A stretch of DNA of 64,000 nucleotides from Chryseolinea sp. H1M3-3. GTDB taxonomy: Bacteria; Bacteroidota; Bacteroidia; Cytophagales; Cyclobacteriaceae. Each line of letters starts with the position of its first letter. Within the stretch, counting starts at the first letter, position 1. Of this stretch, positions 7,208 through 17,241 are shown piece by piece. A program made the translations under genes and the position numbers. The notes beneath the pieces were generated by a model that was given only the letters and a program-made list of their open reading frames with translations, ran no database searches and was not told the origin of the DNA. The stretch is taken from assembly GCF_029360725.1 (NCBI RefSeq), contig NZ_JARKMY010000001.1:868001-932000 (forward strand), in the 5' to 3' direction.

Positions 7208-10200
7208 TCATTTAGTGCAATACTTTTCAATTTGAAAACGCGCTTTTTGGTCACCAAACTCTACAGCTTTGCGCCAGTCGAAACAAGCCTTGGTGTTTTC
7301 TTTCAATTGGTAGTAGAAATTTCCTCTTTGTTTATAATACATCGCGTTCTTTGGCTCAATGCGGATTGCTTCATCCATATCAGAAACACCAGCACCATAG
7401 TCATCGAGTTGTGATTTACAGGTTGCACGATTATAGAAAGCTAATCCATCATTCGGATTGAGTTGAATTACCTTATTGTAGTCCAGCATAGCTCCTTCGA
7501 AATCTTCAAGACCTTCTTTTATCAATGCCCTGTTAAAGTGCGCATCCACATTCTTTGGATCAATATCCAGGGCTTTATTTAAAGAGGTTACTGCTGACTT
7601 AGTATCTTCTAAAGCGATGTATGCACGTCCCCGATTTAAGTGTAGGGCTACCGTGCTTTCGCCTGCTTTCTCTGCATTTTCAAAATCTACCAATGCTCCT
7701 GGAAAGTCTTCCTCCTCCATCTTCATCAGTCCGCGTTTATAAAACACTTCTTTGTCTTTTACACCTGCGTCTATAAGTTTATCATAATATTCGCGCGCTG
7801 GCGGAAATTTTTCAACATTATAATAGCTATTCCCCAACCACCGATACAGCTCCGGGTCAGGCTTCTCAGTTAGTTTTTCAACCTCTCTAAAATCTTTAAT
7901 GGCTTCTTCATATTTCTTTGAAATAAAATAAGCCTGACCACGATTATCATATGCTCTTGCATAATCTTTTCTGCGGTCTATGGCGCGACCAAAATCAGCA
8001 ATAGCCATCGGATAATTTTCTTGTTTTAAATGAGCTTTCCCTCGATTGTTAAAAAGAACGGCGTCCTCATACCCAAGTGTAACCGCTTGAGTGTAATCCT
8101 GGATCGCATCTGCTAATCTGTTCTGAACAAAGTGAACATCGCCACGATGGAAAAACGCAATTGCAAGTTTTGGATCTTTTTCGATAGCCATATTAAAATC
8201 TCTCATGGCTTCATCCATTTTCTTAGCGTCATACCGGCAATAGCCGCGCATGTCGAATGCTGGCGCAGTTGATGTACCAGAATTTATAGCCTTGTCTAAA
8301 TCTGCAAGCGCGCTGGGATAATCCTTCAATGTATATTTAGCTGTTCCCCGTTTTAAAAAAAGCTCTGAATCTGTCAGCCCACTTTCGATTGCTTTGTTGA
8401 GATCAGGAATAGATTTTTCATACTCCTTTAACTCAATCAGCGAACTTCCCCTTGCCACATAGACATTAATATCTTTACTCGCGTTCTCAACGGCTTTGTT
8501 TAAATCATCAACAGCGCCTTTGTAATCTTTCGTATTGTACTTCGAAATTCCTAATGCGGCAAATTCATCTCCTCCAGCCTCACTTCTGGAAACAACGATC
8601 GCGAGATCAGCAATTACACCGGGATATTCCTTAAGTTGATACCGGGCAGCAGCACGATTTTTCAGTGCCAGCGTGTAATCCTTTTTAATTCCAATGGAGC
8701 GGTCGTAATCAGCAATGGATTCTTTAACCATACCAGCTTTGAATTTCGCTTTTCCGCGGTTATTAAAAATCACTTCATCATTAGCTCCCAATGCAACAGC
8801 CTTGTCGTATGCTTCAATGGCGTTTTTGAAATTATCCTCCTTAAAGCGCGCATTCCCGAGTGGGTAGTAGACATCCTTATTTTTACTTTCAAGGGACGCG
8901 GCCTTTTCCAAGTGTGGCAAAGCCTCTTTTTCTTTTTGCAAGGCCATATACGATAAGGCCAAAGCCTCGTAGATAACTAAGTCGGCCTTATTTGCTTGCA
9001 CACTTTTTTCAAGATCAATAACGGCTGGGCTATATTGCTTTTGCTGATAATATGACAACCCTTTCTTAATGTTAATGTCTATTTCTTTCTCACCAGCTGT
9101 TTCTGCGGCCGTCAAAGCATCCACTGCTCCTTTATAATCGTTGGCTTCATACTTCAGATAGCCTGCATAAAGTGAAACTTTTCCATCTTTTACTCCTGCC
9201 AGCAATGCTTTGTCGAGATAAGTGCGCGCCACATCTTTTTTTCCGATTGCATAATTTGAGATACCAAGCATTCGTAGAACATCAGGTGTCTCCCCTTCCG
9301 TGGCTTTCGTTTTCTCTAAATCTGCAGATGCTCCTGCATAATCCTTCAATTCAAACTTAGCCGTACCGCGGTTCAACAGCGCTTTATCATAACCAGCATT
9401 TAGTTGAATTGCTTTATCATAATCCGCAATCGATCCGGGAATATCATGGGAGTTAAATTTCGCTTTCCCCCGGTTATTAAATATAACAGCATCGTTGGCT
9501 CCCTTACTCACAGCGTTGTCATAGTATTTAATGGCTGCTGCAAAATCATTCTTCATAAACTTTAGATCGCCAAGGTTTTTGAAAGCGTCGATATCATCGG
9601 CACCCATTGAGATAGCCTTTTCAAGATCTTTCATGGCATTGTCATAGTCTTTTTGGATAAAGGACGCATTTCCCTTGTAGAGAAATACTTCTTTCGAAGA
9701 GATACCACTACTGATTGCGCGACTCAGTGACTCTATTGCCGCAACATATTCTTTGTTCTTAAACTGACATATACCCAGGTGGTTAAAAACATCTTTATCA
9801 CTAACTCCCATAGATACTGCCGCTGCTAATGCTTTTGTTGCTTCGGCACAGTTCCCCAACTGTGCCTGGCTCAATCCAAGCATTCTGAAAATCTCTTTAT
9901 CCTTCACATTTTTTTGGACAACGGTATTCAAGGATTCAGCAGCTCCTTTCAAATCTTGCAGCGCATACTTTGCTGCTCCAACCTTTTGATGGATCTCCAC
10001 ATCATTTCTTCCTGCGGCAAGAAGTTTTTCAAAATCAGCAATACTTCCCTTCCAATCCTGCACCTTATATTTTGCTTCCGCGCGATTTTCTATTGCTTTA
10101 TCGTAACTTGAATTAACTTCAATGGCTTTGTCAAAATCTGCAATAGCACCCTTGAAATCTTGCACGTTGTATTTCGCCTTTCCACGGTTATTGTACAAAA

Positions 10201-10684
10201 TCGCATCTGGCTTTCCTGCAGCAATAGCTTTATCATAGCTCGTGATTGCTTCACGATAATTCTCCATCCTGAATTTTGCATTGGCGAGGTTAACAAATGT
10301 TTCAATTTGCTTGGCACCCATGCTTACTGCCTTATCCAGGTCGGTTGCGGCTCCCTGAAAATCGTTGAGGTTATATTTAGTGTTGCCGCGATACTCAAAT
10401 AAATCAACGGTATTGATACGCGCCTTTAGCCCATCGTCCAGATCCGATTTTGCTTTTTCGAAGCTCTTCAAATGATAATATGCAATACCACGTTTCACGT
10501 ATACTTCTTTGTTAGCGAATCCAGAATTAATCAATTGTGTTAATTGTACAGACGCATCGTTGTAATCACCCGCATCAAGTTTTTTTAACGCCGACTCCCA
10601 TTGAACCTGGAGAAGTGAGTCCGTTTTTTGAGCGTATGAATAAGAGATTAAAAAAATAAATCCTGCTAAGAATTTTACTCTCAT
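7208..10684 (-). CDS. Giant exported TPR-repeat protein with 238-residue super-repeats
   Basis: A 1,158-residue protein with a signal peptide (MRVKFLAGFIFLISYSYAQ) followed almost entirely by about 33 tetratricopeptide repeats of 34 residues (pattern NRGxAKxxxxDxxGAIADxDKAI). It should form a long superhelical scaffold, probably periplasmic. The motif NNRGKA recurs at residues 165, 403, 641 and 879, exactly 238 residues (seven TPRs) apart, so the protein grew by duplicating a seven-repeat block. The C-terminus (CFDWRKAVEFGDQKA) is a capping TPR found in related Bacteroidota proteins. The gene stands alone; the anti-sigma gene upstream ends 129 bases before it. Its partner is unknown. Confidence 0.88.
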   Translation of the reverse strand: MRVKFLAGFIFLISYSYAQKTDSLLQVQWESALKKLDAGDYNDASVQLTQLINSGFANKEVYVKRGIAYYHLKSFEKAKSDLDDGLKARINTVDLFEYRGNTKYNLNDFQGAATDLDKAVSMGAKQIETFVNLANAKFRMENYREAITSYDKAIAAGKPDAILYNNRGKAKYNVQDFKGAIADFDKAIEVNSSYDKAIENRAEAKYKVQDWKGSIADFEKLLAAGRNDVEIHQKVGAAKYALQDLKGAAESLNTVVQKNVKDKEIFRMLGLSQAQLGNCAEATKALAAAVSMGVSDKDVFNHLGICQFKNKEYVAAIESLSRAISSGISSKEVFLYKGNASFIQKDYDNAMKDLEKAISMGADDIDAFKNLGDLKFMKNDFAAAIKYYDNAVSKGANDAVIFNNRGKAKFNSHDIPGSIADYDKAIQLNAGYDKALLNRGTAKFELKDYAGASADLEKTKATEGETPDVLRMLGISNYAIGKKDVARTYLDKALLAGVKDGKVSLYAGYLKYEANDYKGAVDALTAAETAGEKEIDINIKKGLSYYQQKQYSPAVIDLEKSVQANKADLVIYEALALSYMALQKEKEALPHLEKAASLESKNKDVYYPLGNARFKEDNFKNAIEAYDKAVALGANDEVIFNNRGKAKFKAGMVKESIADYDRSIGIKKDYTLALKNRAAARYQLKEYPGVIADLAIVVSRSEAGGDEFAALGISKYNTKDYKGAVDDLNKAVENASKDINVYVARGSSLIELKEYEKSIPDLNKAIESGLTDSELFLKRGTAKYTLKDYPSALADLDKAINSGTSTAPAFDMRGYCRYDAKKMDEAMRDFNMAIEKDPKLAIAFFHRGDVHFVQNRLADAIQDYTQAVTLGYEDAVLFNNRGKAHLKQENYPMAIADFGRAIDRRKDYARAYDNRGQAYFISKKYEEAIKDFREVEKLTEKPDPELYRWLGNSYYNVEKFPPAREYYDKLIDAGVKDKEVFYKRGLMKMEEEDFPGALVDFENAEKAGESTVALHLNRGRAYIALEDTKSAVTSLNKALDIDPKNVDAHFNRALIKEGLEDFEGAMLDYNKVIQLNPNDGLAFYNRATCKSQLDDYGAGVSDMDEAIRIEPKNAMYYKQRGNFYYQLKENTKACFDWRKAVEFGDQKARFQIEKYCTK

Positions 10685-10812: not shown

Positions 10813-11619
10813 TTAGATTTTAACAACATTTCCAACGACTTGCATCGTTTCGAGTGTTGGACTTGTTTTTCCACCACGCGGTTCAACGGTTACCGCAAAT
10901 GTGGCGGCACCCGGTTTGATGTCTTTCATTTTAAGAAGTCCCGAAAAATTACCATCAAAAACACCAGCGTCGACAGGTTTTCCATCAATAATGGCCCACA
11001 GTTGGTATTGGTTTTCCTGAGCCAATTGTTTCATCTCCTGGATACTGAGGTAAACCTCTTTCGTCGATTCGTTCCAATAAACCGAAGCCAGGGAGCCTGG
11101 TGCAATTGGGGTACCTTTCATTACAACCCTGTTGAATGCAGGATTATTGGTAATATTCAAATCTTTTTCAATGGCATCGAGGCGTTTATTGACGGTGTTA
11201 TAATCTTGAGCGATGCGCTGGTTTTGTGCAATAAGGTCTGCCAGATTATTTTCAGAACTTTTCCATTTGTCCCAATAATTATAGGCGAGGTATGAGGTAA
11301 TAAGTGCAAGGGTTATAGAAGCGGCAGCAGCAAATCTCCAGAATGTCAAACGGCCTTTTTCTGCTTTCAGTTCGACAACCTTCGTTACGGGAGTTCGACT
11401 GTCAATGGTGGCGAAAAGTTTTTCTTTAACGGATGCGTTCGGCTGTACTGCAGCTTTCATCAACAATCTTTCTTGTGCTTCCTCAATGAGTTTCAGCTCT
11501 TTTTGAAGCTCAGGATATTGGGCTAGGTTTTTCTCAACCTCAGCACGTTCGCGATCAGAAAGCTCTCCCAATGCGTAAGCTTCCAAAATACCGGACGATA
11601 TGTATGCCTCAACGTTCAC
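10813..11619 (-). CDS. Membrane anti-sigma factor, RskA type
   Basis: A 268-residue single-pass membrane protein. Residues 1-75 are a helical cytoplasmic domain (ISSGILEAYALGELSDRER) without the HxxxCxxC zinc motif of classical anti-sigma factors. A membrane segment lies near 90-108, followed by a coiled stretch. Residues about 165-268 match the anti-sigma-K (RskA) extracytoplasmic domain (YQLWAIIDGKPVDAGVF). It starts with GTG overlapping the sigma-factor stop (GTGA), so the two are co-translated. It probably holds the sigma factor at the membrane until an envelope signal releases it. The divergent DUF4331/TonB genes are the obvious candidate regulon. Confidence 0.88.
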   Translation of the reverse strand: MNVEAYISSGILEAYALGELSDRERAEVEKNLAQYPELQKELKLIEEAQERLLMKAAVQPNASVKEKLFATIDSRTPVTKVVELKAEKGRLTFWRFAAAASITLALITSYLAYNYWDKWKSSENNLADLIAQNQRIAQDYNTVNKRLDAIEKDLNITNNPAFNRVVMKGTPIAPGSLASVYWNESTKEVYLSIQEMKQLAQENQYQLWAIIDGKPVDAGVFDGNFSGLLKMKDIKPGAATFAVTVEPRGGKTSPTLETMQVVGNVVKI

Positions 11620-12131
11620 TCTAATTTTAACAAGTTTCTCAATTCTTTCATGGCCAGCCGCATCCGTGTTTTAACAGTGCCTAAAGGGAGATTAAACTCT
11701 TCAGACATTTCCACCTGCGTATATCCTTTCAGATAATGATGATCTATTACAAAGCGCTGGTCTTCCGGAAGTTGTTTTAATACTTCCTGCAGCCCAATAA
11801 CCTCGACCGACATTTCCGTAAATTCTGCTCGATCCACTTTACTTACGAAGTTTTCAATATCGTCAGTTTTCTTGCTCTTGCTAAATTCTTTTGACCGTGT
11901 TTTATCGATCGCCTGATTTCTTGCAATATTCAACATCCAAGTGAATAGTTTTCCTTTCGTAGCATCATAGCTATCAATTCGATCCCATATCTTCAAAAAT
12001 ACATCCTGGAGAATTTCCTCTGCTAGTTCCTCTTTCTTGATGATTCGGGAAATAACGCCTAGCAACGCTCCTGCATAATGATCATAAAGATATTCAAGCG
12101 CATTTTTCTCCTTGCGCTGCAACGCTGCCAC
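11616..12131 (-). CDS. ECF-type RNA polymerase sigma factor
   Basis: Sigma-70 region 2 (EYLYDHYAGALLGVISRIIK, AEEILQDVFLKIWDRID, LFTWMLNIARNQAIDKTR) and region 4 (LPEDQRFVIDHHYLKGYTQVEMSE, LPLGTVKTRMRLAMKELR) are complete. It directs RNA polymerase to a small regulon and is controlled by the overlapping anti-sigma gene. The first canonical start is GTG 12131 (171 residues), yet the frame stays open upstream to about 12199 and reads ISEEAL just before it, which resembles the usual N-terminus of this family; no ATG, GTG or TTG is available there. It faces the DUF4331 gene across 176 bases. Confidence 0.93.
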   Translation of the reverse strand: MAALQRKEKNALEYLYDHYAGALLGVISRIIKKEELAEEILQDVFLKIWDRIDSYDATKGKLFTWMLNIARNQAIDKTRSKEFSKSKKTDDIENFVSKVDRAEFTEMSVEVIGLQEVLKQLPEDQRFVIDHHYLKGYTQVEMSEEFNLPLGTVKTRMRLAMKELRNLLKLE

Positions 12132-12307
12132 CAGAGCTTCTTCTGAAATATGTTTTGATGTCGATAAAATGATTGACCAGATTGAGTTACGAAAATATCA
12201 AAAAGTAACGGGCAAATTTCATGAACTGAAAAAAAATCATTGCCTGCGGAAATCCAAGCCCTGCTACGATCTCGTAAGTGAAGCAAACAATTTAAATAAA
12301 ACCTATT

Positions 12308-12976
12308 ATGAGATTAAAGTTAAACCTTAAAAGTCTTGGCCTTGCACTGGTGGTTTTTGTCGCTTGTGCTGCAAGCTACCTGATAGCCGCAGATCATATT
12401 GATGCCCCGGCAGTGACAGGTACAGGATCGGATATCACCGATGTATATGCTTTTCAAAGTCCTGCCAACTCCAGTAACATGGTATTTGTCGTGAATGTAC
12501 AGGGACTTCTCGCGCCATCTGCCACTGCTGCCGCCTCTTTTGATGAAGAAGTGATGATTGAAGTCAACATAGACAACTCTTCAACAAAGGACAACATGGA
12601 AGATCTAGTGATTCAAGCAACATTTGATAATGGCAAGGTCAAAGTGTTCGGACCTGAAGCCCCGGCACAAAAAGGACTGATGAGCACGTTGCTAAAGTCA
12701 ACGCCCGCCGAAGCGACAGTAACCAGTTATGGTGCGAATCCTGTGATTGGAGAAAGCAACGGGATAAAAGTGTTTGCTGGCCCACGGGATGATCCCTTTT
12801 TCTTCGACCTGAATCAATTCAAAGCAATCATTGGGGGAACAGCAACGTCTTTCAACAATCCCGGAGCAGATGCTTTTGCTGGTACAAATGTATTGGCCTT
12901 AGTGATTGAAGTCCCCAAATCGATGTTAGGATCTGATGCGATCAATATTTGGGCAACTTCAAATCGTAAAATGTAA
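12308..12976 (+). CDS. DUF4331 protein, N-terminal half, exported
   Basis: A 222-residue exported protein with a hydrophobic signal region (residues 8-28) followed by ADHIDAP, the hallmark start of DUF4331, and GPRDDPFFFDL, its second conserved block. It ends at IWATSNRKM, where a full-length DUF4331 protein would continue. The missing C-terminal blocks lie in the next gene, 16 bases downstream, with its own signal peptide. So the domain is divided into two exported polypeptides that may pair. The function of DUF4331 is not known to me. It is the first gene of a four-gene operon divergent from an ECF sigma/anti-sigma pair. Confidence 0.85.
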   Translation: MRLKLNLKSLGLALVVFVACAASYLIAADHIDAPAVTGTGSDITDVYAFQSPANSSNMVFVVNVQGLLAPSATAAASFDEEVMIEVNIDNSSTKDNMEDLVIQATFDNGKVKVFGPEAPAQKGLMSTLLKSTPAEATVTSYGANPVIGESNGIKVFAGPRDDPFFFDLNQFKAIIGGTATSFNNPGADAFAGTNVLALVIEVPKSMLGSDAINIWATSNRKM

Positions 12977-12992
12977 AACCTGAAAAACTTAA

Positions 12993-13529
12993 ATGATGAA
13001 AACAAATTTGAAATATTTATCCGCGATCGTTCTTTTTGGAACGGCTTTAGTTTTTAGCGCATGCGACGATGATGATAATGACATGCCTGTAACGACAATG
13101 TATGAACAAGAAGACCAAATGGCGAGGCCGGCAATCAATACCGTTTTTGTTTCGACAGGCGAAAAAGACATGTTTAATACTACCACACCTGCACAACAAG
13201 GAGCTGCCTTTGCAACCAAGTTTAAAGACAAATTGCTAGCACTAAATCCCGGCTATACAACCAACCTATTGGGACTGGACGCCACAACGTTTACCGGTGT
13301 ATTAGCAACGGATGTTCTATCCGTATCGTTGACAGCGCCAACCACGTTTTATGATGGAACCAACGTACTCACCGGCCGTAAACTGGATGATGATGTGATC
13401 ACTGTCGAATTGATTTTACTTTTTGGTGGGCCAGATGCGATGGCCAATCCCGGATTAACAGATGACCATGTCGATGCCAATGATAAGACTTTCTTAAATT
13501 CATTCCCTTACCTGGCAACGCCACATTGA
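12993..13529 (+). CDS. DUF4331 protein, C-terminal half, lipoprotein
   Basis: A 178-residue lipoprotein: the signal ends VFSAC with Cys24 as the lipidation site, followed directly by the acidic run DDDDND, which resembles the surface-export signal of Bacteroidota lipoproteins. The body has the C-terminal DUF4331 blocks ARPAINTVFV, GRKLDDDVITVEL and VDANDKTFLNSFPYLATPH. It lacks the ADHIDAP start, which is in the gene 16 bases upstream. The two products together make one complete DUF4331. Exposure at the cell surface is inferred from the acidic residues only. Confidence 0.85.
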   Translation: MMKTNLKYLSAIVLFGTALVFSACDDDDNDMPVTTMYEQEDQMARPAINTVFVSTGEKDMFNTTTPAQQGAAFATKFKDKLLALNPGYTTNLLGLDATTFTGVLATDVLSVSLTAPTTFYDGTNVLTGRKLDDDVITVELILLFGGPDAMANPGLTDDHVDANDKTFLNSFPYLATPH

Positions 13530-13614
13530 TCTATTCATTATGCTGTACTACTCTGTATCTCTGCGAGATAATTTCGCAGAGGTACACGGTGCAGTAAATA
13601 CAAATCACACTGTT

Positions 13615-14907
13615 ATGAAAAATATTCCTCTTCTTGCGTTAATTATTTTTTGTGCGCAATCCTGTAGCGAAAGAAAAATAGATATTACCCACTTCGAAGA
13701 TTATCGACCTTATCTAAGTTCTCATCGGCTGGTAGAAAACGATCCCATCCAGGAAGAAGTCGCCTTTTGGACCAAACGTCTTAAGCAAAACAAAAATGAC
13801 GAAGCTTCCCTTGTAAAATTAGCGGCATTGCACGCTGACCTTTTTAAATTAACGGGACTGGCGAATCACATTCTGCTATCTGATAGTTTGCTTAAGGTGG
13901 TGTTGAAAAAATATCCTGGCGGAAATGTCGAGATCTACCATCAGCTTTCCGCAAATGCCATTTCTCAACACCGATTCCGCGAATCTAAAAGTTTTGCTGA
14001 GGAGGCACTGCGCCTAGGAGATAAAAAAGCAACATCATTGTTGCAGCTGGTAGACGCTTCTATGGAAATTGGAAATTATGCTAACGCCAATCAGATTCTT
14101 CGAAACTTCAAAAATAAAAATTCCTTTGCTTACCTCATTCGAAACGCAAAGCTTCATGATCACAACGGTAGGCTAGACAGCGCAATTACGTGCATGGAAA
14201 AGGCATATCAGCGCGTGAAAGGAAATAAATCGCTGGCACAATGGACGCTCTCAAACCTGGGTGACATGTATGGTCACGCCGGAGATATTAAGAAGAGTTA
14301 TGAAACTTATCTCGAAGTCCTAAAACACAATCCGAATGACGATTATGTATTAAAAGGCATTGCCTGGATTGCAATTTCTTATGATCATAATTTAAAAACT
14401 GCAAAGGCTATCATTAACGCACTGGCCGAACGCAAGAGAACACCGGAATTGCAGTTGATGCTTGCGGAAATCGCGGAAATGGAAGGGAACGAATTCGCGA
14501 AACTACAGCACCTCAAAAAATTTAAGGCACTTGTCGGCCAACCGGAATACAAGGAAATGTATCATAAGTATCTAGTTTTACTGGAAGCGGAAGAATTTAA
14601 TAACGCATATGCAGCAGCAGAAATTGCTAAAGCAGAAGTATTGGAAAGACCCGCCCCTCAATCGTACGACCTATTAGCCTGGAGCTATTACCATCAGAGA
14701 AAATTTAAAGATGCCCTTGATATTGCTGCACGAAAAGTGGAGAACCAAACGTATGAACCTGAAGCCATTTACCACCTGGCAACGATTTACAAGGCAAATG
14801 GTAACACAGAAAAAGCCCGCCATTATTTTACGATGGCGTTGGAAAGTGAGTTTGAGCTCGGACCATCCACCGCGAAAAAAATAAGCGCAGCGCTAGAACA
14901 ATTGTAG
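13615..14907 (+). CDS. TPR-containing lipoprotein
   Basis: A 430-residue protein. I start at ATG 13615 because it begins a short lipoprotein signal (MKNIPLLALIIFCAQSC, Cys17); a start 25 codons upstream lacks one. The body carries helical tetratricopeptide-like repeats, clearest at ALRLGDKKATSLLQLVDA, LGDMYGHAGDIKKSYETY and the C-terminal HLATIYKANGNTEKARHYF. It is third in the DUF4331-DUF4331-TPR-TonB operon, 85 bases after the second DUF4331 gene and 93 before the receptor. It probably acts as a periplasmic or outer-membrane scaffold for the other products. That role is inference from position. Confidence 0.8.
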   Translation: MKNIPLLALIIFCAQSCSERKIDITHFEDYRPYLSSHRLVENDPIQEEVAFWTKRLKQNKNDEASLVKLAALHADLFKLTGLANHILLSDSLLKVVLKKYPGGNVEIYHQLSANAISQHRFRESKSFAEEALRLGDKKATSLLQLVDASMEIGNYANANQILRNFKNKNSFAYLIRNAKLHDHNGRLDSAITCMEKAYQRVKGNKSLAQWTLSNLGDMYGHAGDIKKSYETYLEVLKHNPNDDYVLKGIAWIAISYDHNLKTAKAIINALAERKRTPELQLMLAEIAEMEGNEFAKLQHLKKFKALVGQPEYKEMYHKYLVLLEAEEFNNAYAAAEIAKAEVLERPAPQSYDLLAWSYYHQRKFKDALDIAARKVENQTYEPEAIYHLATIYKANGNTEKARHYFTMALESEFELGPSTAKKISAALEQL

Positions 14908-15000
14908 GATGGACGGGCTATTTTGAGAAACTTTCTGCGATTGGAAAGATTGCAATAGAAGTTAGCGATTGAATTTCAGTTCGAATTTTTTGTAATACTC

Positions 15001-17241
15001 ATGAAAAAGATGTTTCTAACGCTTGAACTACTGTGCATGTGTTTTTTTACTGTTGCACAAGGTATTATCGGCGGTAAAATAATCGATGAAAAAAAAGAAG
15101 TGCTCGCGGGCGCACACGTGTTTTTGAAGGAAGAACCATCGTCAGGTGCAATTGCTGATCTACATGGAAATTTCCAGTTAAAAAATATACCGGCCGGCGA
15201 ATACACCATTATTGTTTCGTTTATCGGATATGAAACTACTTCTCAACAAGTTCAGGTTCGTGATAACTCAATAATCAAATTGGATTTAATACTTATCCCT
15301 GGTAATGTGCAGTTGCGTGACCTTGTAATCAGCGGAAGCGTGGACCAGGCAATTAATACCCTTAGTCAGGTTGACATTAAGTTACGGCCCACGAATACAT
15401 CCCAGGATATTTTAAGAATGGTGCCGGGTTTGTTCATTGCTCAGCATGCAGGGGGCGGCAAAGCAGAACAAATATTCTTACGCGGATTTGATATTGATCA
15501 TGGTACCGATTTAAATCTCGAAGTGGATGGTCTACCCGTTAATATGGTTTCCCATGCGCATGGCCAAGGGTATGCTGACTTACATTTTGTTATTCCCGAG
15601 ATGATTCAATATGTGGATTTCGATAAAGGCCCTTATTATGCTAACAAAGGAAATTTTACTACGGCCGGCTTTGTGGATTTTCAAACAAAAGATGTGCTTC
15701 AGGAAAATTTTGTTAAAGTTGAAGGCGGGCAATTTGGAACACTCCGAACAGTCGCCGGAATAAATTTATTTTCCTCCGATGCCTCGCGCACAAAAGGATA
15801 TGTCGGGACTGAATATTTTATTTCAGAAGGGTTTGTGGAATCACCGCAGAATTTTAACCGGTTTAATCTTACGTCTAAAATTTCTACACGATTAAAAAAT
15901 GATGATGAATTCGTTATAGGTACGTCATTCTTTACAAGCCGTTGGGATGCGTCGGGTCAGATCCCATCCCGTGCAGTTTCAAACGGAATGATTACACGCT
16001 TTGGCTCAGTTGATAACACAGAGGGAGGAAATACCAGTAGAACAAATCTCTTCATAAAACACTTACACGAGTTTTCAAACGGTGCTTATTGGAGCCAGCA
16101 AGCATACGCCGTTCGTTATGACTTTGATTTATACTCCAACTTTACATTCTTTTTAAATGATCCCCTTCATGGCGACCAAATTAATCAAAATGAATCGCGC
16201 ATGATTTACGGTTATAAATCCAACTATCATTATATCGGCAAATTTTTCGGAAAAGAATTAATAACAGAAGCAGGCGTAGGGATAAGGATAGATGATGTTG
16301 ATGACATTAGTTTATCGCATTCGATCAAGCGTTCTTTTATGAATGATAAGAAACGAGGAGATGTAAACGAAACCAATGCACATGCCTACATCAGTGAAAC
16401 ACTCACCTTGTCTGGAAAATGGTCACTCAACGCGGCCCTGCGTTATGATTTCATCAATTTCCGCTACTATGACAAGTTACAGGTTTCAGACCGTTCTGTC
16501 GGAAAATCTATTTTGAGTCCGAAGTTGAATATCAACTATCAGGTGGATAACAACGTCCTAATTTATTTGCGGACTGGAATGGGTTTCCATTCGAATGATG
16601 CACGTGTCGTTACACAGCAATCAGGTGAAGATATTTTACCACGAGCTTTTGGAGTTGATCTCGGTTTTAGTACGAAACTAAGCGACCGGCTTTTTGTACA
16701 CGCCGCACTTTGGCGGCTGGATCTTGACGAGGAGCTGGTTTATGTTGGAGACGAAGGGATCGTTGAGCCAAGTGGAAAAACGCATCGTAGCGGCATCGAC
16801 CTTTCCGTACGGTATGAAATTTTACCATGGCTTTTCCTTGATGGAGATTTGAATCTCACAAAACCCAAAGCAAAGGATGAACCTGAGGGTAAGAATCATA
16901 TTCCCCTTGCTCCCACTATCTCAACCATCGGTGGGCTGTCTTTTAAAATCAAAAATGGTCTTAATGGAGCGTTGCGTTATCGGTACATCGGAGATCGAGC
17001 CGCTAATGAAGATAACAGTGTGGTTGCAAAAGGATATTTTCTGGCAGACGCAGTAGTGAATTACACGCAATCAAAATTTGAAGTCGGATTTTCAGCCGAG
17101 AATATATTTGATGCGAAGTGGAACGAAGCACAATTTGATACAGCATCCAGGTTGCAATATGAAGCTGACGCTGTTTCTGAAATTCATTTTACCCCAGGCA
17201 CGCCGTTGTTCTTAAAAGCAAAGGTGAGTTTCTTCTTCTGA
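15001..17241 (+). CDS. TonB-dependent outer-membrane receptor
   Basis: A 746-residue receptor: signal peptide to about residue 20, a carboxypeptidase-regulatory-like beta domain (21-100, GKIIDEKKEVLAGAHVF), a plug (about 110-230) and a 22-strand barrel ending KAKVSFFF with a terminal Phe as expected for outer-membrane insertion. The plug has the usual FLRGFDIDHG and VDGLPVN segments but is unusually rich in histidine: residues 148, 167, 185, 187 and 195, in part as SHAHGQGYADLH. This could mean a metal or metal-chelate substrate. It is the last gene of the DUF4331 operon and is likely controlled by the divergent ECF sigma factor. The substrate is unknown. Confidence 0.9.
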   Translation: MKKMFLTLELLCMCFFTVAQGIIGGKIIDEKKEVLAGAHVFLKEEPSSGAIADLHGNFQLKNIPAGEYTIIVSFIGYETTSQQVQVRDNSIIKLDLILIPGNVQLRDLVISGSVDQAINTLSQVDIKLRPTNTSQDILRMVPGLFIAQHAGGGKAEQIFLRGFDIDHGTDLNLEVDGLPVNMVSHAHGQGYADLHFVIPEMIQYVDFDKGPYYANKGNFTTAGFVDFQTKDVLQENFVKVEGGQFGTLRTVAGINLFSSDASRTKGYVGTEYFISEGFVESPQNFNRFNLTSKISTRLKNDDEFVIGTSFFTSRWDASGQIPSRAVSNGMITRFGSVDNTEGGNTSRTNLFIKHLHEFSNGAYWSQQAYAVRYDFDLYSNFTFFLNDPLHGDQINQNESRMIYGYKSNYHYIGKFFGKELITEAGVGIRIDDVDDISLSHSIKRSFMNDKKRGDVNETNAHAYISETLTLSGKWSLNAALRYDFINFRYYDKLQVSDRSVGKSILSPKLNINYQVDNNVLIYLRTGMGFHSNDARVVTQQSGEDILPRAFGVDLGFSTKLSDRLFVHAALWRLDLDEELVYVGDEGIVEPSGKTHRSGIDLSVRYEILPWLFLDGDLNLTKPKAKDEPEGKNHIPLAPTISTIGGLSFKIKNGLNGALRYRYIGDRAANEDNSVVAKGYFLADAVVNYTQSKFEVGFSAENIFDAKWNEAQFDTASRLQYEADAVSEIHFTPGTPLFLKAKVSFFF

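Follow-up and report, generated by a model that had tools for sequence, protein, structure and literature searches.

The mpt83-sigK-rskA cassette represents the SigK-RskA regulon of M. tuberculosis, occurs also in Yersinia and is reported to be conserved even in Gram-negatives; the inducing signal of the M. tuberculosis SigK-RskA-fasciclin regulon is unknown (PMC7509140). This cassette is the nearest known system to a locus of Chryseolinea sp. H1M3-3 (Bacteroidota; Cyclobacteriaceae) that we analysed within a window of 64,000 nucleotides (contig NZ_JARKMY010000001.1, positions 868,001 to 932,000). In this locus, the genes for an extracytoplasmic function (ECF) sigma factor and an RskA-type anti-sigma factor face an operon encoding the N- and C-terminal halves of a DUF4331 domain (D1 and D2), a TPR lipoprotein and a TonB-dependent receptor. 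As in the cassette, the ECF sigma factor gene overlaps that of an RskA-family anti-sigma factor, and fasciclin genes carry the promoter in relatives of the window. In contrast to the cassette, the main target in the window is DUF4331-TPR-TonB, no fasciclin gene was found in the operon when the locus was scanned with Pfam, and the sigma factor lacks Cys and stays below the cut-off of the SigK model (best-scoring NCBIfam match PRK09646.1, 124 bits; cut-off 226 bits). We read the locus as an ECF-sigma-controlled surface uptake operon built on a two-piece DUF4331, a picture to which, as a whole, we give a probability of about 0.5.

Other systems share parts of this organization. The single-chain DUF4331-TPR-HupE-TonB loci of Bacteroidota (L066, L072, L111) have the same gene set and in many cases the promoter motif described below, but their DUF4331 is in one piece, many carry a C-terminal extension instead of a lipoprotein anchor, and they often contain tandem copies, HupE and a small His-containing protein. 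SusCD and BtuB-BtuG (the latter, PMC10404256) likewise combine a TonB receptor with a probable surface lipoprotein in one operon, and the receptor of the window has a CarbopepD_reg_2 domain. However, the lipoprotein of the window is a DUF4331 protein rather than SusD or BtuG, and a second exported half is needed; no SusD Pfam match was obtained for D2 or the TPR protein. Anglerase-HupE/UreJ, DUF4198 and DUF6702 proteins (PMC12537917) are exported, have an N-terminal His-based metal site, as is predicted for DUF4331, and are encoded by HupE/TonB-linked genes. Unlike in the anglerase type, the His of DUF4331 would be at mature position 3 (X-X-H, ATCUN-like) and not His1, and no solved structure matches the predicted fold. 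Neither DUF4331 nor PF14224 was named in the literature searched, subscription papers being outside its coverage. The fixed division of the DUF4331 domain and the shared promoter are the parts that we have not seen described before.

The first-pass annotation, made from the sequence alone, had proposed that D1 and D2 are successive halves of DUF4331, each with its own export signal, and both points hold. In a genome search, PF14224 matched D1 at profile positions 2-84 and about 155-240 and D2 at positions 250-421, without overlap. Since these ranges follow each other, D1 and D2 can be regarded as successive parts of one domain. Both are DUF4331 members (93.8 and 55.9 bits; cut-off 27), and positions roughly 85-150 of the profile are unmatched in D1. 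D1 has a signal peptide and D2 a lipobox. Compared with the nearest relative, both halves are conserved at the protein level (D1 88%, D2 85%). The nonsynonymous divergence (dN) is 0.07-0.08 and the synonymous divergence (dS) is saturated for both, which indicates purifying selection on both halves; the dN/dS ratio was omitted, dS being saturated.

The same annotation held that other members are single proteins and that the arrangement was unlike theirs. This proved to be wrong, as the split form is widespread in Bacteroidota: in a phylum-wide sample, 26 of the 48 DUF4331-positive genomes, from at least four families, have the split form, and 22 have DUF4331 in one chain. Within the host family, Cyclobacteriaceae, DUF4331 occurs in 38 of 396 genomes, nearly always as D1 and D2. 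D1 ends right after the same conserved Trp in all 35 host-family loci (35/35), after which D2 begins as a lipoprotein. The two genes are always adjacent, key invariant residues are distributed over both halves, and some D2 proteins have an extra PKD domain after the lipobox. No relatives were found in viral contigs. The locus is real and under selection, and its arrangement is not a one-off. What the sequence itself shows is the split and the export signal of each half, together with the conserved gene neighbours and the promoter motif common to these loci.

The single-chain homologue L094 was predicted with high confidence by AlphaFold2 (mean predicted local distance difference test score (pLDDT) 91, predicted template modelling score (pTM) 0.92). 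When aligned to L094, the split point falls into the loop of a hairpin, between strands 231-245 and 254-265, so that D2 would supply the partner strand for the last strand of D1. Because the split lies in a hairpin loop of a confident single-chain fold, the halves probably belong to one domain, and the successive profile ranges and the fixed position of the split support this earlier proposal. Overall, we regard it as quite likely that D1 and D2 form a single two-piece domain. When the PDB was searched by fold with the L094 model, no entry had an E-value under 0.003 and TM-scores on the query did not exceed 0.13, and the D1 sequence and the family profile gave nothing significant against the PDB.

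The coordinates of the six open reading frames were confirmed (Table 1), as was the gap of 176 bases between the start of the sigma factor gene (12131) and D1 (12308), in which an ECF promoter is predicted. Side-by-side reading of upstream regions yielded the ECF-type motif AAATCCA[AG]-N-CGTA[AG][AG]T. Among 140 upstream regions, 23 loci have A[AT]CCA-N-CGTA with a spacing of 15 and 28 with a spacing of 16; every other spacing occurs in 0-4 loci, and the reverse strand has one match. Of the 57 split loci, 30 have the motif, where shuffled sequences would give 0.6. The pattern was picked from some of the same sequences, but neither the spacing profile nor the single-chain loci entered into the choice, and both thus provide a check. 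Three of the 30 matches (L152, L157 and L163, all fasciclin-led loci) lie within the end of the fasciclin gene; these are probably chance matches, with the proper site further upstream.

The motif is not confined to split loci. ATCCA-N15/16-CGTA precedes DUF4331 operons across Bacteroidota and at one Pseudoalteromonas locus, and the motif is also present upstream of separately placed TPR, TonB and small His-containing genes and of a fasciclin gene that adjoins a second RskA pair (L193). A fasciclin-type gene stands between promoter and D1 in L158 (Pfam-confirmed), L152, L157, L161, L163, L164 and L168-L170, and is thus the first operon gene in two genera; where it precedes D1, the motif site stands before the fasciclin gene. 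As the same motif precedes all of them, the DUF4331, TPR, TonB and fasciclin genes appear to form one regulon. The strict pattern matches six sites in the window genome, and the D1 site is the only promoter-like one among them. A wider regulon in this genome was rejected, the other five matches not being promoter-like, and autoregulation of the sigma factor gene by the same motif was likewise rejected, there being no site before this gene in the window.

The sigma/RskA pair flanks 29 of the 57 split loci, and these are spread over several orders and families, which makes its link to the operon real, and the shared promoter is kept even where the pair is elsewhere; the earlier suggestion that the pair belongs with the operon is therefore upheld. 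At split loci the pair occurs in three arrangements (divergent upstream, co-directional upstream and downstream). It also flanks 10 of the 90 single-chain loci, including one on a Pseudoalteromonas plasmid. RskA_C has a single copy in the 6.88 Mb genome, beside the DUF4331 operon. The other genes are also frequent partners: a TPR gene is present in 52/57 split and 73/90 single-chain loci, and a TonB receptor gene in 40/57 split loci. Judging from the promoter and the gene neighbourhoods, control of the operon by the sigma factor is very probable.

Table 1. Features of the DUF4331 locus, with positions in the window.
Feature	Position	Strand	Remarks
RskA-type anti-sigma factor, 268 aa	10813..11619	-	PF10099 (RskA_C) E 3e-18, above the Pfam cut-off
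ECF sigma factor, 171 aa, no Cys	11616..12131	-	Sigma70_r2/r4 (regions 2 and 4); overlaps start of anti-sigma factor gene
Predicted ECF promoter	12252..12276	+	ATCCA (12252-12256), N16, CGTA (12273-12276); 56 nt upstream of D1 ATG
D1, N-terminal DUF4331 half	12308..12976	+	PF14224 E 2e-26, profile positions 2-84 and 154-237; signal peptide
D2, C-terminal DUF4331 half	12993..13529	+	PF14224 E 6e-15; lipoprotein, acidic stretch after Cys
TPR lipoprotein, lipobox AQSC	13540..14907	+	TPR Pfam matches; translation start may be internal to the reading frame
TonB-dependent receptor	15001..17241	+	TonB plug and barrel (PF00593, PF07715), PF13715 (CarbopepD_reg_2, N-terminal)

With respect to location, D1 has an ordinary signal peptide (...SYLIA/ADHIDAP), with a predicted mature N-terminus A-D-H-I-D-A-P. 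The lipobox of D2, FSAC, is followed by DDDDND (CDDDDND), and D2 is a lipoprotein with an acidic stretch in 35/35 host-family loci. Such a stretch agrees with the published export signal of Bacteroidota lipoproteins (PMC5080379). At positions +2 to +7, D2 proteins have a mean of 3.3 acidic residues, SusD of the same genome 2.6 and the TPR lipoproteins of the same loci 1.2 (D2 versus TPR lipoproteins, Mann-Whitney P 2e-9). Redundancy filtering left 101 single-chain Bacteroidota members, 54 of which extend for over 60 residues beyond the domain, and the one extended member that was scanned carries a Por_Secre_tail type IX sorting domain. Both routes, the lipoprotein anchor of D2 and the type IX tail of single-chain members, would by their signals lead outward, and a location on the outer face is rather likely. 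Tandem DUF4331 genes are present in 47 of the 90 single-chain loci (e.g. L072 and L085); in the tandem pairs that were read, such as L029, only the second DUF4331 has the C-terminal extension.

The most likely function, as suggested by sequence features, is surface capture for TonB-dependent uptake of a transition metal or metal complex. We arrive at this reading because of the permease genes in other loci and the invariant His at position 3. HupE_UreJ_2 or NicO genes are found beside 32 of the 90 single-chain loci; HupE/UreJ or nickel-transporter genes stand by DUF4331 and TPR genes, mostly at non-split loci, in Bacteroidota and on plasmids of Proteobacteria and Actinomycetota. The predicted mature N-terminus of DUF4331 proteins is S-S-H-R-E-A-P or A-D-H-I-D-A-P, and a fitting cleavage site gives X-X-H in 145/145 N-termini. 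Among the His residues of DUF4331, only the one at predicted mature position 3 is invariant. Its invariance in single-chain members is partly the result of selection, since most of these were fetched with the SSHREAP pattern and all were picked by a His motif; the plasmid and split members were not so fetched. An X-X-H N-terminus is the amino-terminal Cu/Ni-binding (ATCUN) arrangement (PMC7701195), and proteins of the DUF4198, DUF6702 and anglerase-HupE types have been shown to follow a related logic (PMC12537917). As ligand we tentatively propose a transition-metal ion or complex (Ni, Co or Cu), at somewhat short of an even chance.

Taken together, the uptake operon could work as follows. RskA would release the SigK-like sigma factor, with which RNA polymerase would start at the ATCCA-N16-CGTA promoter (12252-12276) and produce a D1-D2-TPR-TonB transcript. 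D1 would be a soluble protein whose X-X-H N-terminus is free, and D2 would be anchored in the outer membrane as a lipoprotein, probably facing outward. The two would close into one DUF4331 domain, in which a strand of D2 completes the last hairpin of D1. This tethered domain would act like SusD or BtuG, capturing the ligand for transfer to the TonB receptor, and the TPR lipoprotein would serve as assembly or docking factor.

Several observations weigh against this picture. Roughly one third of the split loci show no motif in the stretch that was read. No HupE/UreJ or NicO permease gene was found at the window locus by Pfam scan, and the only HupE/UreJ gene of the window genome (L145:6888-8093) lies away from it, head to head with a gene for DUF6702, a family reported as metal-sequestering protein (PMC12537917). 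Fourteen host-family genomes have a true urease and all of them are without DUF4331; nickel for urease was thus rejected as the purpose in the host family (14/14). These urease genomes and the lack of HupE at the window locus speak against nickel in particular, and the metal is therefore something we infer. D1 has neither a type IX tail nor a lipobox, and its route to the outer face is unexplained. When D1 was predicted alone, the model was modest (pLDDT 64, pTM 0.63); this may fit a dependent half, but a shallow, distant alignment could explain it. That the halves are two independently acting proteins from a divided gene, with no joint domain, would fit their separate and different export signals and the PKD domain added in some D2. 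This is nevertheless improbable, as D1 and D2 are always adjacent, the fixed split lies within one hairpin of what is predicted as a single fold, and each of them carries some of the key invariant residues. Finally, in three sister species a peroxiredoxin gene (AhpC-TSA; Pfam-checked in L274) has a motif site 27-54 nt upstream (L273 in G002, L274 in G003 and L275 in G001), and these sites point to stress as much as to uptake. An envelope or oxidative stress response, in which a SigK/RskA-like regulon protects or remodels the envelope by means of surface-placed DUF4331 and fasciclin proteins, any import being secondary, would account for them. It would also agree with fasciclin genes carrying the same promoter and often leading the operon, and with the occurrence of DUF4331 in Actinomycetota without a TonB receptor. 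On the other hand, the TonB receptor is kept in most Bacteroidota loci, many others have a metal permease, and the strict pattern gave no peroxiredoxin site in the window genome. We consider a stress response rather unlikely.

The role of the sigma pair may also be questioned. The pair is not exclusive to the operon: it is kept without the operon in sister species, and RskA is present in 194 of 358 DUF4331-negative host-family genomes compared to 37 of 38 positive ones, a comparison not corrected for phylogeny. In both G002 and G003, the genes on either side of the pair are those for the TPR protein and the methyltransferase, as at the window site, with no operon between them. The pair could therefore be a chance neighbour from an older locus (TPR protein, anti-sigma factor, sigma factor, methyltransferase), the operon being regulated otherwise. 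However, the linkage of pair and operon recurs across several families and orders, the promoter is kept upstream of the operons of G001-G003, whose sigma pair lies elsewhere, and in the tree the unlinked pairs of these genomes nest within a supported clade of linked pairs. A chance neighbour is thus very unlikely. The same low probability applies to classical surface signalling, in which the receptor senses the ligand and signals via the anti-sigma factor as in FecA-FecR-FecI. TonB receptor and ECF sigma/anti-sigma genes do stand side by side, but a Pfam scan found no STN domain in the receptor and no FecR match at the locus. As the receptor is without STN and the anti-sigma factor is RskA rather than FecR, the locus does not have the make-up of a FecA-FecR-FecI system; moreover, the sigma pair is retained also without the operon.

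For the surface uptake operon, the phylum-wide recurring promoter ties DUF4331 to a SigK/RskA-like regulon and offers a direct way to its trigger and ligand. It may also inform what the SigK-RskA-fasciclin regulon does in other bacteria, and splitting a conserved domain so that one half is soluble and the other a lipoprotein would be an unusual way to place a protein on the cell surface. A bolder and rather doubtful extension is that the SigK-RskA-fasciclin type regulon of Bacteroidota is a surface response for transition-metal acquisition, with DUF4331 as an X-X-H metal-capture protein whose halves (soluble and surface lipoprotein) assemble outside the outer membrane.

Some neighbouring genes were noted in addition. 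A 1158-aa TPR protein (window 7208-10684) keeps its place next to the anti-sigma factor gene in the sister species and one further genus, whether the DUF4331 operon is present or not. Small membrane-anchored His-containing proteins with no Pfam family, absent from the window, are encoded just before the TonB receptor at L027:9091-9444 and L071:4496-4870. A different single-chain DUF4331 protein (L150:5746-7053) has a C-terminal hydrophobic helix and a predicted HHYE N-terminus, and its gene directly adjoins that of a probable YHS-domain protein (YHS below the Pfam cut-off).

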